64,000 bases of DNA from Proteinivorax tanatarense (GTDB taxonomy: Bacteria > Bacillota > Proteinivoracia > Proteinivoracales > Proteinivoracaceae). Each line of letters begins with the position of its first letter. The stretch's first letter is position 1. The stretch is from the NCBI RefSeq assembly GCF_040267685.1, contig NZ_CP158367.1, positions 124,001 through 188,000 on the forward strand, given 5' to 3'. The notes under the pieces were generated by a model. The model saw nothing but the letters and a program-made list of their open reading frames with translations, was not told the DNA's origin and ran no database searches. The translations under genes and the position numbers were made by a program. This document shows positions 1,899 to 40,065 of the stretch, one piece after another.

Positions 1899-3104
1899 TT
1901 GAAGCTAATAAAAGTTGCGCTAATTATGCTTATAACGGTTTTAATTTTACCTGCTTGTACAGACACTGATGCACCAAAAGAAAAGCTATCTAACGATAAA
2001 GATAGTACAGTAACCAGCCCAGCAGATGCTAAGGAAGACGACAATGATAAACAAGATGATAAGGAAGAAGAACCTGGGGAACCTAAGGTAGTAAGACCTG
2101 AAAACTTAAAGGGGATATACTTAACTGGTAATTCTGTAGGACACCCTACTAGGTTTATTGACCTAATAGAGTTTGTAAATGAAACTGAGCTTAATACCAT
2201 GGTAATAGATGTTAAAGATGACCACGGTGATATATCTTATAAAGACACTGAAGTACAGCTTGCTTTGGATATGGATGCTAATAAAAATAAAGTATCTTCT
2301 ATGGAAGAAGCTATGGACAAACTGGTAGAGAATGAAATCTATCCTCTGGCTAGAGTTGTTGTGTTTAAAGATAATAATTTAGGAGAAAGCAGGCCAGATC
2401 TAGCCATACAAGACCCTAATGGTGGAGTTTGGGTTGAAAGTGGCAGTAATGTAAGGTGGGCTGATCCACATAGCGAAGAGGTCTGGGAATATGTTGTAGA
2501 TGTTGCTATAGAGGCAGCAGAACTAGGATTTCAAGAGATTCAATTCGATTATATCAGATTCCCTAATCATGGTGGCTTAAAGTACCCTCACAAGGAAGAT
2601 TTTAAGGAGAACCACCTACAGGGAGACGAAGAATATAGTAGGTCATTGGTCATAAAGGCATTTACAGAGTATGCAGCAGCTAGATTGAAAGAGCACGAAG
2701 TAGATGTTACTGCAGATATTTTTGGGATGATTGGGCATACAAGTGGTGATATGGGAATTGGTCAACACTTAGAGACCCTAGTATCTGCAGAAGGGTTAGA
2801 TGCTATTTATCCTATGGTTTATCCCTCACACTATCATCATAATAATTACGGATTAAGCCCTAATAATGCTTATCCTTATGAAACGGTTTATTATGCTTTA
2901 GAAGAGTTTCAAGAACGTTTAGACGAAGCAGGTAGCGATGTGGAAATTATACCGTGGCTGCAAGCTTTTTCTTGGGGAAAACCAGCTTATGGCCCTGAAG
3001 AAGTAAAGCTTCAAATAGAAGCGGGTCGCGATCTTGGGATAGATGGTTATATACTTTGGAATTCAGGGAACGTCTATGGTCCATACAAGGATGCTTTAAA
3101 GTAA
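1899..3104 (+). CDS. Putative glycoside hydrolase lipoprotein (DUF4015 type)
   Basis: A 401-residue lipoprotein. The lipobox Leu-Pro-Ala-Cys places Cys at about residue 20, so the mature protein should be anchored to the outer face of the membrane. An Asp/Glu/Lys-rich linker (about 25-66) leads to a TIM-barrel-like domain. Recognisable blocks are LKGIYLTGNS, NTMVIDVKDDHG, YPLARVVVF, FQEIQFDYIRFP, DIFGM, DAIYPMVYPSHY and GIDGYILWNS. These match the putative glycosyl hydrolase family PF13200 (formerly DUF4015). The substrate is unknown; a wall or exopolysaccharide glycan is a guess. It starts with TTG, with GGGGAG about 9 nt upstream, and has its own promoter. Confidence 0.85.
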   Translation: MKLIKVALIMLITVLILPACTDTDAPKEKLSNDKDSTVTSPADAKEDDNDKQDDKEEEPGEPKVVRPENLKGIYLTGNSVGHPTRFIDLIEFVNETELNTMVIDVKDDHGDISYKDTEVQLALDMDANKNKVSSMEEAMDKLVENEIYPLARVVVFKDNNLGESRPDLAIQDPNGGVWVESGSNVRWADPHSEEVWEYVVDVAIEAAELGFQEIQFDYIRFPNHGGLKYPHKEDFKENHLQGDEEYSRSLVIKAFTEYAAARLKEHEVDVTADIFGMIGHTSGDMGIGQHLETLVSAEGLDAIYPMVYPSHYHHNNYGLSPNNAYPYETVYYALEEFQERLDEAGSDVEIIPWLQAFSWGKPAYGPEEVKLQIEAGRDLGIDGYILWNSGNVYGPYKDALK

Positions 3105-3112
3105 AAAAGTCT

Positions 3113-3141
3113 TTGACTTTCATTTACCTTCGTGGTATACT
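3113..3141 (+). promoter_or_regulatory. Strong sigma-A promoter of the structured leader/ncRNA
   Basis: TTGACT (3113-3118), exactly 17 nt, then TATACT (3136-3141): one of the best vegetative promoters in the window. Predicted start is near 3148. It lies just after the DUF4015 stop codon and has no gene for about 300 nt downstream. Confidence 0.8.
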
Positions 3142-3147
3142 CTTTAT

Positions 3148-3407
3148 ATAAAAGGTAAAAAAGTGGTTTGTGAAGTATCAGTTTGTAGTAGGTGGCTAAT
3201 GAGCTGGGGTATGCTTATTCTAAGTAGACTATAGTTAGTTAGCTAAACAATCGAGCCAAGCTGTGAAAAACTTTCCAGGGGAAAAGTGGCTTTATCTTGG
3301 TTCTGTATGGGCCAAGATTAGACTATAAACTTAAGTTTATGGTCTGGGCTAGTCGAAAGACGAAATCCAAGCACTCTAGTCTCTCTACGAGACTAGAGTG
3401 CTTTTTT
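3148..3407 (+). ncRNA. Structured RNA of unrecognised class: candidate attenuator leader (or stable ncRNA) before an amino acid ABC operon
   Basis: About 260 nt without a credible ORF, between a strong promoter and a strong terminator. Visible helices: TGGCTAA (3193-3199) with TTAGCTA (3239-3245); AGCCA (3255-3259) with TGGCT (3287-3291), enclosing CTTTCC/GGAAAAG; ATCTTGG (3294-3300) with CCAAGAT (3312-3318); and a near-perfect palindromic hairpin at 3320-3345. AGACTA occurs at 3224-3229 and 3320-3325 and is complementary to TAGTCT in the terminator 5' arm, so an alternative (antiterminating) pairing is possible. Only 43 nt separate the terminator from the next start codon, which leaves little room for another promoter. 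I see no T-box, lysine, SAM, TPP, glycine or cobalamin core. A 6S-type RNA is the main alternative. Confidence 0.6.
3371..3407 (+). terminator. Strong intrinsic terminator of the leader/ncRNA
   Basis: A 13-bp perfect stem: GCACTCTAGTCTC (3371-3383) with GAGACTAGAGTGC (3389-3401), a 5-nt loop and six T residues. It precedes the transporter gene at 3451, so transcription of that operon probably depends on read-through or antitermination. Confidence 0.92.
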
Positions 3408-3450
3408 ACACCCCTTTTTACCAAAAATTTATAGGAGGTTAGTTATAGGA

Positions 3451-4236
3451 ATGAATTTTTTTAAGAAAAGCTTTGGATTACTTACTGTTTTACTGCTAAC
3501 TATTGGTATGATCGGCTGTACTTCTAATGGAGGAACATATGATGAAGTAATGGAAAGAGGTTATATTGAATTTTCTATGAGTGGAGGATATCCACCGTTT
3601 AATTATTATAATGATGATGGTGATTTAGTAGGGTTTGATGTAGAGATTGCCGAGGAAGTGGCAAAAAGGATGGGTGTTGAATCGAAACCAGTAACAGCAC
3701 CTTTTGATGGATTAGTTTTTGGTCTTCAAACAGGGGACTTTGATGGGATACTAGGAAGTATGGCTATCACAGAAGAAAGGAAGGAAAATGTTTCCTTTTC
3801 CAACCCTTACTATTATTCTGGTGCCCAAATATTTGTCGAAGAAAATTCTGATATAAATGGCATAGATGATTTGACAGATAGTCATCAAGTTGCAGTTGTG
3901 ACAGGTACTACTTTCGAAGAAGCTGTGGCAGAAACAGGTGCTGAAATAGTGCCCCTAGAAGACGATGCTGAAACCCTCAGACAACTGGATTCTTCTGATG
4001 TTGACGCTGTAGTTACTGACTATCTTGTAGGGTTGATAAATATCGAAGAGCACGGATATAACTTTGTTCCTGCTGGTGATTTTTTATACACCGAAGAGAT
4101 TGCAGTGGCTTTCCAGCAGGAAGATGTGGAACTTGTTGAGGCCGTTAATCAAGCCTTAGAAGAAATGATTGAAGATGGAACTTATGAGGAAATATCTTAC
4201 AGTTATTTTGGTACTGATATAAGTGAACCAAGATAA
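3451..4236 (+). CDS. Polar amino acid ABC transporter, substrate-binding lipoprotein
   Basis: A 261-residue family 3 (PBPb type) solute-binding protein. It has a signal peptide with lipobox Gly-Met-Ile-Gly-Cys (Cys about 23), then the family blocks IEFSMSGGYPPFNYYNDDG, LVGFDVEIAEEVAKRMG, GLVFGLQTGDFDGILGSMAITEER and the hinge-side DAVVTDYL. It would bind an amino acid outside the membrane and deliver it to the permease encoded downstream. The specificity (glutamine, arginine/ornithine/lysine or cystine) cannot be read from sequence alone. The protein is unusually acidic, with about 53 Asp/Glu and only about 10 Lys/Arg. It is the first gene of a three-gene operon and is preceded by the structured leader. 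GGAGG lies about 12 nt before the ATG. Confidence 0.92.
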   Translation: MNFFKKSFGLLTVLLLTIGMIGCTSNGGTYDEVMERGYIEFSMSGGYPPFNYYNDDGDLVGFDVEIAEEVAKRMGVESKPVTAPFDGLVFGLQTGDFDGILGSMAITEERKENVSFSNPYYYSGAQIFVEENSDINGIDDLTDSHQVAVVTGTTFEEAVAETGAEIVPLEDDAETLRQLDSSDVDAVVTDYLVGLINIEEHGYNFVPAGDFLYTEEIAVAFQQEDVELVEAVNQALEEMIEDGTYEEISYSYFGTDISEPR

Positions 4237-4325: not shown

Positions 4326-5003
4326 TTGATTTCTGATTTAGTTAATTCAGTACAAGAATGGTTTTCTTTTTTAATTGGAAGCTTTACTTTATATCCTGAT
4401 GCTATTATTATAACTTTTCAAATAACAGCTATTGGAATTTTGCTTGGAACAGTATTAGGGCTAATTTTCGCATTTTTAAAAATATCAAAGTATAAGGCTT
4501 TAAACATCATTGCTAATGTTTACATAAGTATTATACGAGGGACGCCTTTATTGTTACAAATTATAGTATTTTATAATGTTATAAGAATCGTAATCAATTT
4601 TGGTCGTGTAGAGGCTGCTGCTCTAGCATTAGCTGTTCATAATGGAGCATATATAGCAGAGATATTTAGAGGTTCTATCGAATCCATATCAAAAGGGCAG
4701 ATGGAAGCTGCTCGCTCCTTAGGCATGACTCATTGGCAAGCTATGAGAAGAATAATTTTGCCACAGGCTTTTAAACGCGCTATTCCACCACTTGCAAACC
4801 AGTTTAGTATAGCTCTAAAAGACTCATCTTTAGCTACGGTAATTGGAGTACGTGAGATTTTACAAGTTACAAGGACACATGTAGCAAGTTCTTATGAACT
4901 CAGATTTTATTTAACTGCAGGTCTTATATACTGGGTGCTAACTACTGTAATAACTTATATAGTTCGAATTTTGGAGAAAAAGTTTTTTTCTAATGAAAGG
5001 TAG
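4326..5003 (+). CDS. Polar amino acid ABC transporter, permease
   Basis: A 225-residue HisM/GlnP-type inner-membrane permease with about five hydrophobic segments. The EAA loop that docks the ATPase is seen as [30 protein letters not shown] (given here only as family evidence), and the typical [10 protein letters not shown] block lies at about residues 68-77. TTG start, 90 nt after the binding-protein gene and beyond the intercistronic stem-loop. It probably forms a homodimer with two copies of the ATPase encoded 11 nt downstream. Confidence 0.9.
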
Positions 5004-5014
5004 GTGTAAAAAGC

Positions 5015-5734
5015 TTGATTAAGATTGATAATTTAAATAAGTGGTTTGGAAAGCTGCATGTACTTAAAGACATAAACTTAGATATCAAAGAGCAGGAGGT
5101 AGTAGTAATTATAGGTGCCAGTGGCTCGGGGAAAAGTACACTTCTACGTTGTATAAACTTACTGGAGCAATACCAAAAGGGAGACATAACAATTAAAGGA
5201 GAAACTTTAGGAAATGGAGAAAATATCAACCAAATTAGGCAAAAAGTAGGGATGGTGTTTCAACGTTTTAACTTATTTCCTCATAAATCAGTAATTGAAA
5301 ATGTAATGGAAGGTCCTACTCAAGTAAAAGGAACTAATAAAGAAGAAGCTGAGTTGATTGCTAAGGAATTATTAGCAAAAGTTGGTCTTGATGATAAATC
5401 CTATCAGTATCCTGCTCAACTTTCGGGAGGCCAGCAACAAAGAGTGGCAATTGCCCGCTCATTGGCGATGGAGCCAGAGATTATGCTATTTGATGAGCCT
5501 ACCTCAGCCTTAGATCCTGAACTGGTAGGTGAAGTTTTACAGGTAATGAAAGATTTAGCTAAAGAAGGAATGACAATGGCTGTTGTAACCCATGAAATGG
5601 GATTTGCAAAGGAAGTAGCAGACAGAGTTGTTTATATTGATGAAGGGAAAATAATAGAAGAAGGAACTCCACAACAAATTTTTGACAACCCAAGAGAAGA
5701 AAGAACACAAGAATTTTTGAGTAAAATATTATAG
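5015..5734 (+). CDS. Polar amino acid ABC transporter, ATP-binding protein (GlnQ-like)
   Basis: A 239-residue ABC ATPase of the polar amino acid class. Walker [10 protein letters not shown] is at about residues 33-41, the Q-loop is [10 protein letters not shown], the signature is LSGGQQQR, Walker B is [14 protein letters not shown], and the switch His is in VVTHEMGF. It energises uptake through the permease. TTG start, 11 nt after the permease stop, so it is translationally close-coupled. The operon ends at the terminator just downstream. This subfamily does not let me assign the transported amino acid. Confidence 0.93.
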
Positions 5735-5744
5735 TGTTACCACA

Positions 5745-5772
5745 AAAGCCACTAATTTAGTGGCTTTATTTA
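5745..5772 (+). terminator. Terminator of the amino acid ABC operon
   Basis: AAAGCCACTAA (5745-5755) pairs with TTAGTGGCTTT (5757-5767), followed by ATTTAT. The T-tract is imperfect, so some read-through into the next gene is possible. Confidence 0.7.
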
Positions 5773-5797
5773 TAAATAAAAAATATTTGCAAAGTTA

Positions 5798-5806
5798 TGA
5801 TATAAT
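5798..5806 (+). promoter_or_regulatory. Possible extended -10 promoter for the amidase-family gene
   Basis: TGATATAAT (5798-5806) is an extended -10 element (TG-N-TATAAT), but there is no good -35 at 17 nt. The implied start near 5813 would leave a leader of about 13 nt carrying only the ribosome site GGAGGG. Confidence 0.35.
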
Positions 5807-5825
5807 GGCTGTAGGAGGGAAAAAG

Positions 5826-6722
5826 ATGAAAACAAAAACAATAAATAACTTTTCAACTTCAAACTCACCTATAGCCAGTTTAAACTTAGGAGAAAAAGTC
5901 ATAGTAGAAGTGTTAGATAAATTTAATGGACAGCTAACTTATAATAATGAGAATATTTCAAGTCTCAAGGCAGATAAACTCAACCCTGCTACTGGTCCAT
6001 TTTACATAAGAAATACTTACCCAGAAGAAATACTGGTGGTTAATATTCATCAATTAACCGCTGAGTCAATTGGGGTATCTACTGTTTTCCCAGACTTGGG
6101 AGTTTTAGGAGAAAAAATAGAAAAACCTGAAAGCTTTTTTTACAACTTAGACTTTAATACAATAGGGATAGAGGAAGGTAAGATAGAATTTACACCCTTT
6201 ATTTCAATAATAGGAACAACACCTAATAAACTAATAAGTACAGGGGTGCCAGCCAATCACGGAGGAAAAGTAGATTGTCCTAATTTAAAACAAGGCTGTA
6301 AAATTTTATTACCTATATTTCAGGAGGGGAGTTTACTGGCTTTAGGTGGGATCAAAGCTATGCAAGGTTTTGGTCAGGTTGCAGGTACTGGTATAGAGTG
6401 TGGAGGGGAAATTGCCTTTAGCTGTAACAAAACTACAATAGAAGCGTTGAAAACCCCTATGGTGATATCAGAAGAAGGTTATGAAATATTGGCAAGCCAT
6501 TATAATTTAGAAAAAGCTATACACATGGCTACTGAGCAGTGGTGCTATTTATTAGAAGATATTTGTGGTTTTTCTTTTCCAAAGTCATACCATTACCTAA
6601 GTATTGCTTCAAACTTAAGTATAGTTCAATTGGTAAATCCTAATGTTACTGTATCTTTAAGTATTCATAAGAGCATTATATTAGATAAGTTAAAATTATT
6701 TTTTTCTTTACTTGACAAGTAA
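5826..6722 (+). CDS. Acetamidase/formamidase-family protein with degenerate active-site motif
   Basis: A 298-residue member of the FmdA/AmdA fold, judged from the NPATGPFYIRN block (about residues 54-64), the HGG...D block (HGGKVD, about 145-150) and the following ILLPIFQEGSLLALGG region. Family members hydrolyse small amides to ammonia and the acid. Active homologues have a GDxHAxxGDGE motif; here the equivalent reads GGIKAMQGFGQ, so the expected Asp, His, Asp and Glu are replaced by Gly, Lys, Phe and Gln. Loss of classical amidase activity is likely, with some other binding or structural role possible. ATG 5826 follows GGAGGG at a good distance; an upstream in-frame start would run through the promoter-like element. 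It sits alone between two promoter/terminator-bounded operons. Confidence 0.75.
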   Translation: MKTKTINNFSTSNSPIASLNLGEKVIVEVLDKFNGQLTYNNENISSLKADKLNPATGPFYIRNTYPEEILVVNIHQLTAESIGVSTVFPDLGVLGEKIEKPESFFYNLDFNTIGIEEGKIEFTPFISIIGTTPNKLISTGVPANHGGKVDCPNLKQGCKILLPIFQEGSLLALGGIKAMQGFGQVAGTGIECGGEIAFSCNKTTIEALKTPMVISEEGYEILASHYNLEKAIHMATEQWCYLLEDICGFSFPKSYHYLSIASNLSIVQLVNPNVTVSLSIHKSIILDKLKLFFSLLDK

Positions 6723-26388: not shown

Positions 26389-26520
26389 TGTTGGTTTTAA
26401 AAATAAATAGAGACCGAAGACAGTAGGTGTCATAGCGCTTAATTTCCTACCGAGGTATGGACAAGTATAGAAGATTAAATTCTTTGTATACCCTTTCCTC
26501 GTAGGAAAGGGTACTTTTAT
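26389..26520 (+). promoter_or_regulatory. L10 leader (autoregulatory) with attenuator
   Basis: The region has the L10-leader type segment GAAGACAGTAGGTG, TTAATTTCCTACCGAGGT, which folds around the CCTAC/GTAGG pairing. It ends in a terminator: ACCCTTTCCT (26490-26499) pairs with AGGAAAGGGT (26503-26512), then TTTT. The terminator's arm is complementary to part of the leader's binding structure. Excess L10(L12)4 should favour termination before rplJ. Confidence 0.85.
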
Positions 26521-26551
26521 TTATCAAAGAAAACCTTGAGGAGGTGTTTAA

Positions 26552-39958: not shown

Positions 39959-40065
39959 GTTGTGTAATAGTGACAGCGATGATGCGAAAGGTTGCTCCTT
40001 GAATTTTGAGGAAATTTTCGCGGAGTATGTCCGTTTAAAAAAATGGGCGAAAAGGAGGTAAAAAA
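39959..40065 (+). promoter_or_regulatory. Structured rpsJ (S10 operon) leader
   Basis: GCGAAAG pairs with TTTTCGC to close a hairpin at about 39983-40021 that also contains TCCTT/GAGGA. A second hairpin CGGA-GTATG-TCCG follows, then GGGCGAAAAGGAGG. The structure spans the gap between promoter and rpsJ, with no ORF. It does not resemble the E. coli L4-controlled S10 leader in sequence. A ribosomal-protein-binding control element is inferred. Confidence 0.5.

Follow-up and report, generated by a model that had tools for sequence, protein, structure and literature searches.

What kind of RNA fills the long untranslated segment in front of an ABC transporter operon of Proteinivorax tanatarense, and what does it do for the genes behind it? 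The segment lies within a 64,000-nt stretch of contig NZ_CP158367.1 (the window, hereafter), and a first-pass annotation had seen in it a highly structured RNA, of no recognised class, on whose read-through the operon would probably depend, possibly an amino-acid-sensing attenuator or a 6S-like stable RNA. We find that the RNA is a cis-acting leader of ~240 nt in which two domains are conserved, P1/P1b/P2 forming the 5′ one and the hairpins P3, P4 and P5 the 3′ one; that it is a structured cis RNA with a terminator and an antiterminator is near certain. Its parts are as follows.

3113-3141, + strand: sigma-70-type promoter TTGACT-17-TATACT (sequence; kept at the same place in homologues)
3170-3177, + strand: conserved unpaired leader GUGAAGUA (in nearly all homologues)
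3179-3263, + strand: 5′ domain closed by P1, 3179-3185 / 3257-3263 (covariation in alignment A4; window pairs checked; covariance model R2)
3195-3243, + strand: helix P1b, 3195-3199 / 3239-3243 (window pairs checked; similar helix recognised by eye in homologues)
3204-3234, + strand: hairpin P2 with P2b, 3204-3210 / 3228-3234 and 3212-3216 / 3222-3226 (covariation; window pairs checked)
3263-3271, + strand: conserved linker GUGAAAAAC (alignment)
3278-3292, + strand: antiterminator strand, family consensus AGAGARCUGGGGCUU, pairing with 3369-3384 (covariation, folding, window pairs checked)
3294-3318, + strand: hairpin P3, AUCUUGGUUC / GGGCCAAGAU (alignment; unsupervised pair scan)
3320-3345, + strand: hairpin P4, AGACUAUAAAC / GUUUAUGGUCU (alignment; unsupervised pair scan)
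3346-3368, + strand: hairpin P5 with a conserved internal loop, family consensus GGGUGAGUC..GGCGAAACCC (alignment; unsupervised pair scan)
3369-3407, + strand: intrinsic terminator, 15 bp and U-run, whose 5′ arm doubles as the antiterminator partner (sequence, folding, alignment)

The RNA falls in no family of Rfam 15: a covariance-model scan of window positions 3113-3450 gave no match at the gathering threshold and, when relaxed, sub-threshold chance matches only, confirming the absence of known classes that had been claimed from the letters. The same scan of 20 homologous loci placed no family at the RNA; what it returned there, MIR9486-type matches, were merely terminator hairpins resembling miRNA precursors. 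A literature search likewise found no earlier description, the supplementary alignments of large RNA-motif surveys and one survey (10.1093/nar/gkx699) lying outside the comparison. Two known ribosomal-protein leaders occur elsewhere in the window, an L10 leader (26396-26528, +) and an S10-Clostridia leader (39971-40050, +).

Homologues are nevertheless readily found, in many anaerobic bacteria. DNA searches returned copies in a sister species (93% identity), before the same ABC genes in a second genus of the family, and before proV in a different family; these three, with the window copy, made up the four sequences on which we built a covariance model of the 3′ half (R1), which matched in 28 of 398 sampled genomes of the phylum. 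A second model, of the 5′ half (R2), matched in 26 genomes of the same sample, 25 of them already in the R1 set, and added one locus, L082, where the RNA is complete and accompanied by an AblA-like gene. Since the training loci of R2 came from R1 or from a pattern scan, this agreement is not independent; that in a second sample, 391 genomes drawn from the class to which G358 belongs, is, and there R2 found 13 loci in 11 genomes, all 12 of the loci new to the analysis also carrying the adjoining 3′ domain. In named genomes the pattern scan turned up 20 loci, including ones in Thermincola, Dethiobacter, Syntrophomonadaceae and Acetobacterium bakii. Both halves are present in all 49 loci examined, the 5′ half of one (L032) being weak (22.5 bits, E 0.08). 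A further weak match (L036, 1040-1175, 26 bits), with AGAACUGGGGCUU and CACUCUAACUC motifs before a phosphoribosyltransferase-like gene, was omitted for want of a recognisable 5′ domain; it may be a degenerate copy or chance.

The promoter called in the first-pass annotation is present, TTGACT (3113) and TATACT (3141) together matching the consensus at 10 of 12 positions with a TG preceding the -10 box. Shuffled sequence yields a mean of 1.7 sites of such quality, so that one site in the window is not above chance; homologues, however, keep a promoter at the same place, with at least 9 of 12 matches in 44 of 48 (shuffles, 24%) and at least 10 of 12 in 36 of 48 (shuffles, 4%). GUGAAGUA or a near variant opens nearly every aligned copy, 5-50 nt downstream of the -10 box. 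The longest closed reading frame inside the RNA has 21 codons in the window copy, in keeping with the earlier description of some 260 nt free of ORFs in that none is long, and 13 to 57 codons among homologues. That variation also contradicts a leader peptide, a candidate raised by GUGAAGUAG, which resembles a mini-ORF in many copies; the codon at its stop position differs between copies, being UAU in the window and UAC or UAA in others, and among homologues no conserved stop follows GUGAAGUA. Immediately upstream of the RNA is a DUF4015 putative glycosyl hydrolase gene (1899-3104, +), which also adjoins it at two other loci (L002 and L003) and apparently at a third (L027).

Is the RNA as structured as it appeared? 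Its folding energy in the window is -89.4 kcal/mol, far below that of shuffled sequences (-63.0 ± 4.5; z = -5.8, reached by 0 of 200), as the first-pass reading would predict, and homologues in another genus and another family give z = -6.8 and -5.9. In the 5′ domain, whose alignment (A4) was built from sequence alone without structure, 88.3% of cells in P1, P2 and P2b are paired, and 17 of 18 pairs are changed on both sides: P1 shows double changes at all 7 pairs, and P2 with P2b, 92% of whose cells are paired, at 10 of 11, between conserved flanks GAGC and GUUAG/GUAAG. The covariation score of the domain is 0.760, against 0.306 ± 0.020 for shuffled alignments and 0.13-0.20 when partners are slid. 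The GAAAAAC linker between the domains (3263-3271 in the window) is nearly invariant among homologues and could pair with the terminator U-run or make a tertiary contact.

The terminator stands where it had been placed, its U-run ending at 3407, 43 nt upstream of the ATG at 3451, with a stem (3369-3383 / 3389-3403) of 15 bp rather than 13; an automated pattern search for such features missed it, probably as a result of its A/U pairs consuming the T-run. Its 5′ arm is conserved in sequence (CACUCUAACUCU) beyond what pairing with its own 3′ arm needs, and has a second partner in the strand directly before P3 (AGAGARCUGGGG). Across 48 distinct homologues, the duplex of this strand with its own partner averages -11.24 kcal/mol, compared with -10.13 ± 0.22 when partners are permuted, a difference that none of 20,000 permutations reaches in a test that takes no account of relatedness among the sequences; an earlier test with fewer loci (56 of 5,000) had been only suggestive. 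Shuffled antiterminator strands form duplexes of only -7.7 ± 0.4 kcal/mol, and every other 20-nt segment in the 3′ domain falls short of the duplex, apart from the 3′ arm of the terminator itself. When all column pairs were scanned without supervision, P1-P5 and the terminator emerged together with an antiterminator pair (GU 19, GC 13, UA 7, AU 2, UG 2). Thus the homologues share covarying helices in the 5′ domain and a covarying antiterminator.

The two pairings exclude each other. Of 48 transcripts that stop short of the terminator 3′ arm, 45 fold the antiterminator, with a median of 10.9 expected pairs; of the 48 complete transcripts none does, the thermodynamic folding of truncated transcripts serving here as a proxy only for co-transcriptional folding. 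By the same measure the window antiterminator (3278-3282 with 3380-3384, 3285-3286 with 3376-3377, 3288-3292 with 3369-3374) is present at transcript length 3388 and gone by 3394. The RNA therefore has, like a riboswitch, an expression platform with mutually exclusive alternative pairings. The switch first suggested was a different one, between two AGACTA elements and TAGTCT in the terminator arm. Of these elements the one at 3320 was correctly located and forms the 5′ strand of P4; the other, which begins at 3226 and not 3224, lies within P2/P2b. Most homologous terminators read CUAACUCU, which is unable to pair with AGACTA, and since both AGACTA elements are also fixed in their own helices, AGACTA:TAGTCT cannot be the general switch; 3278-3292 is the better-supported antiterminator strand.

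Which genes, then, does the leader precede? In the window they are these.

3451-4236, + strand: family-3 solute-binding protein (SBP_bac_3), the first regulated gene
4326-5003, + strand: ABC permease, polar amino-acid type
5015-5734, + strand: ABC ATPase, GlnQ/TcyN-like

An acetamidase/formamidase-family gene (5760-6722, +) begins 26 nt past the ATPase and is possibly a fourth operon gene. In all 47 distinct loci the RNA is co-directional with, and directly upstream of, a gene, and the first downstream genes comprise 21 family-3 solute-binding proteins, 11 AblA (lysine 2,3-aminomutases, four of which were checked individually, all above the TIGR03820 cut-off), 11 ProV-type betaine/proline/choline ABC ATPases, 2 BCCT transporters and 2 AblB acetyltransferases; genes related in function thus share a conserved, covarying structure in their 5′ leaders, another hallmark of riboswitches. 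AblA and AblB make N-ε-acetyl-β-lysine, a compatible solute, while ProV and BCCT import betaine, and because the RNA precedes these genes we think it very likely that the regulon is mostly one of osmoprotection. Family-3 importers probably belong to it as importers of an osmoprotectant or a precursor, since several genomes with two copies place the RNA before different members of the regulon (for example SBP and AblA in G022, G106 and G504; SBP and AblB in G480). In G504 the two copies (L061 and L070) are divergent and within about 2 kb of each other, one before ablA and one before a family-3 ABC operon. By this reasoning the window operon, too, probably imports an osmoprotectant or precursor; its binding protein is nearest by sequence to amino-acid binders, and, the family-3 importer being the commonest target, some of the regulon may concern amino acids instead of osmotic stress. 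The early proposal of an unrecognised RNA gating the operon by read-through accords with the lack of any Rfam match, the co-directional placement before a gene in every homologue examined and the covarying terminator and antiterminator; its amino-acid sensing is not favoured, betaine transporters and AblA/AblB being found under the same RNA.

These features suggest how the leader might operate. In the ON state the strand before P3 would pair with the first arm of the terminator, closing the 3′ domain, and polymerase would read through; in the OFF state the same arm would pair with its own other half to form the terminator. Because the antiterminator closes the P3-P4-P5 junction, stabilisation of the junction should switch the operon on, an ON polarity predicted from geometry alone. 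An ion or an osmolyte-related metabolite, serving as a small signal of osmotic or ionic stress, may bind to the folded domains, and such binding would stabilise the antiterminator, making the RNA an ON switch. We consider it likely that the RNA is a transcription-attenuation leader, of a class absent from Rfam, that controls operons for osmoprotectant uptake or synthesis and probably senses a ligand. Direct sensing of a small molecule or ion with ON polarity is plausible, and we lean towards it. More tentatively, and at slightly less than an even chance, the RNA may represent a new riboswitch class that reads osmotic state directly, by way of a compatible solute (glycine betaine or N-acetyl-β-lysine, for instance), of K+ or of total ionic strength, and turns on a whole osmoprotectant regulon by antitermination.

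Several known RNAs invite comparison. Na+-I riboswitches (DUF1646 motif, RF03071) are transcription-terminating ON switches, the polarity predicted here, that sometimes precede ablA and eam and sometimes lie in tandem with c-di-AMP riboswitches (PMC9337991); by contrast with the window RNA, they have a short aptamer of two extended helices (a 55-position Rfam model). The RF03071 model matches neither the window RNA nor the 20 homologous loci scanned, has no copy in the window's genome, and is found in 1 of 34 carrier genomes. The c-di-AMP riboswitch (ydaO/yuaA, RF00379) also serves an osmotic regulon, including amino-acid transporters, and uses terminators, but is reported to cause termination (PMC9337991); it has no match at E ≤ 1 in 20 loci and no copy anywhere in the window's genome. 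By model, then, the RNA is unrelated to either. The orphan opuB and proX motifs are candidate riboswitches before compatible-solute transporters (PMC11109978, PMC8632094), yet, as compared by description only, they come from Enterobacteriaceae and from Spiribacter and have proposed translational (SD-masking) platforms. Closer in setting is the trpB motif (SRC-39-1), found in Firmicutes mostly before an uncharacterised amino-acid-type ABC transporter and with a terminator/antiterminator; again by description only, it differs in having at least two hairpins and an antiterminator in the right shoulder of P1, and in occurring also in Fusobacteria and at trpB, and it is not described with ablA or betaine genes (PMC11109978). 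Their descriptions thus set all three motifs apart from our RNA in architecture, taxa and genes. T-box leaders (RF00230) are likewise large Firmicutes leaders controlling a terminator; the Rfam scan found a T-box match in no copy of the RNA, and separate T-box matches lie on the other strand of two loci (L013 and L014).

Could something other than a ligand set the choice between terminator and antiterminator? An osmotically responsive RNA-binding protein might do so: conserved multi-helix leaders with terminators can be protein targets too, a protein-operated antiterminator would look much alike, and the authors of a 50-genome survey could not exclude protein targets for their own candidates (PMC11109978). 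We nonetheless judge such an attenuator unlikely, the RNA being large and two-domained and keeping many unpaired nucleotides invariant, as aptamers more typically do, and no regulator gene being seen among the first downstream genes of the loci examined. That high ionic strength or crowding alone folds the RNA into its antiterminated state, with no specific ligand, would suit both the recognisable targets, which are salt-stress genes, and the antiterminator, a modest helix closing a multi-branch junction that salt would stabilise; bulk ionic sensing would, however, leave the invariant loop sequences of both domains superfluous, and we hold it to be quite unlikely.

Improbable, too, is a second, structurally unrelated c-di-AMP riboswitch class that shuts off osmolyte uptake at high c-di-AMP. 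In the uptake of osmolytes c-di-AMP is a master regulator, and RNAs of the ydaO class govern related genes (PMC9337991, PMC7266159), but the geometry predicts ON rather than OFF, the two RNAs share no detectable homology, and ydaO RNAs occur at other loci in 18 of the 34 carrier genomes, the remaining 16, the window's among them, having none. An amino-acid riboswitch, for lysine or the glutamate family for example, governing uptake and use of that amino acid would account for 21 of 47 targets being amino-acid-type family-3 binding proteins and 11 of 47 lysine 2,3-aminomutases; it would leave unexplained why 11 ProV and 2 BCCT glycine-betaine transporters are also preceded by this RNA, and seems improbable. 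As for a stand-alone stable RNA, 6S-like or an sRNA, that lies upstream of the operon by chance, the strong promoter and terminator would fit, but we reject it with little hesitation: the association is strictly in cis, with 47 of 47 loci co-directional and directly upstream of genes of few related functions, the 5′ arm of the terminator before those genes covaries with an upstream strand, and no 6S model matches.

The leader belongs to a widespread class, which occurs in about 7% of the genomes sampled from the phylum and is absent from Rfam 15. It marks out a coherent regulon of betaine import (ProV, BCCT), N-acetyl-β-lysine synthesis (AblA, AblB) and a family-3 ABC importer, and hints at what the many uncharacterised family-3 importers found under it may do. 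Direct sensing of osmotic state by RNA is little explored beyond Na+ and c-di-AMP, and for this family the list of likely signals is short.
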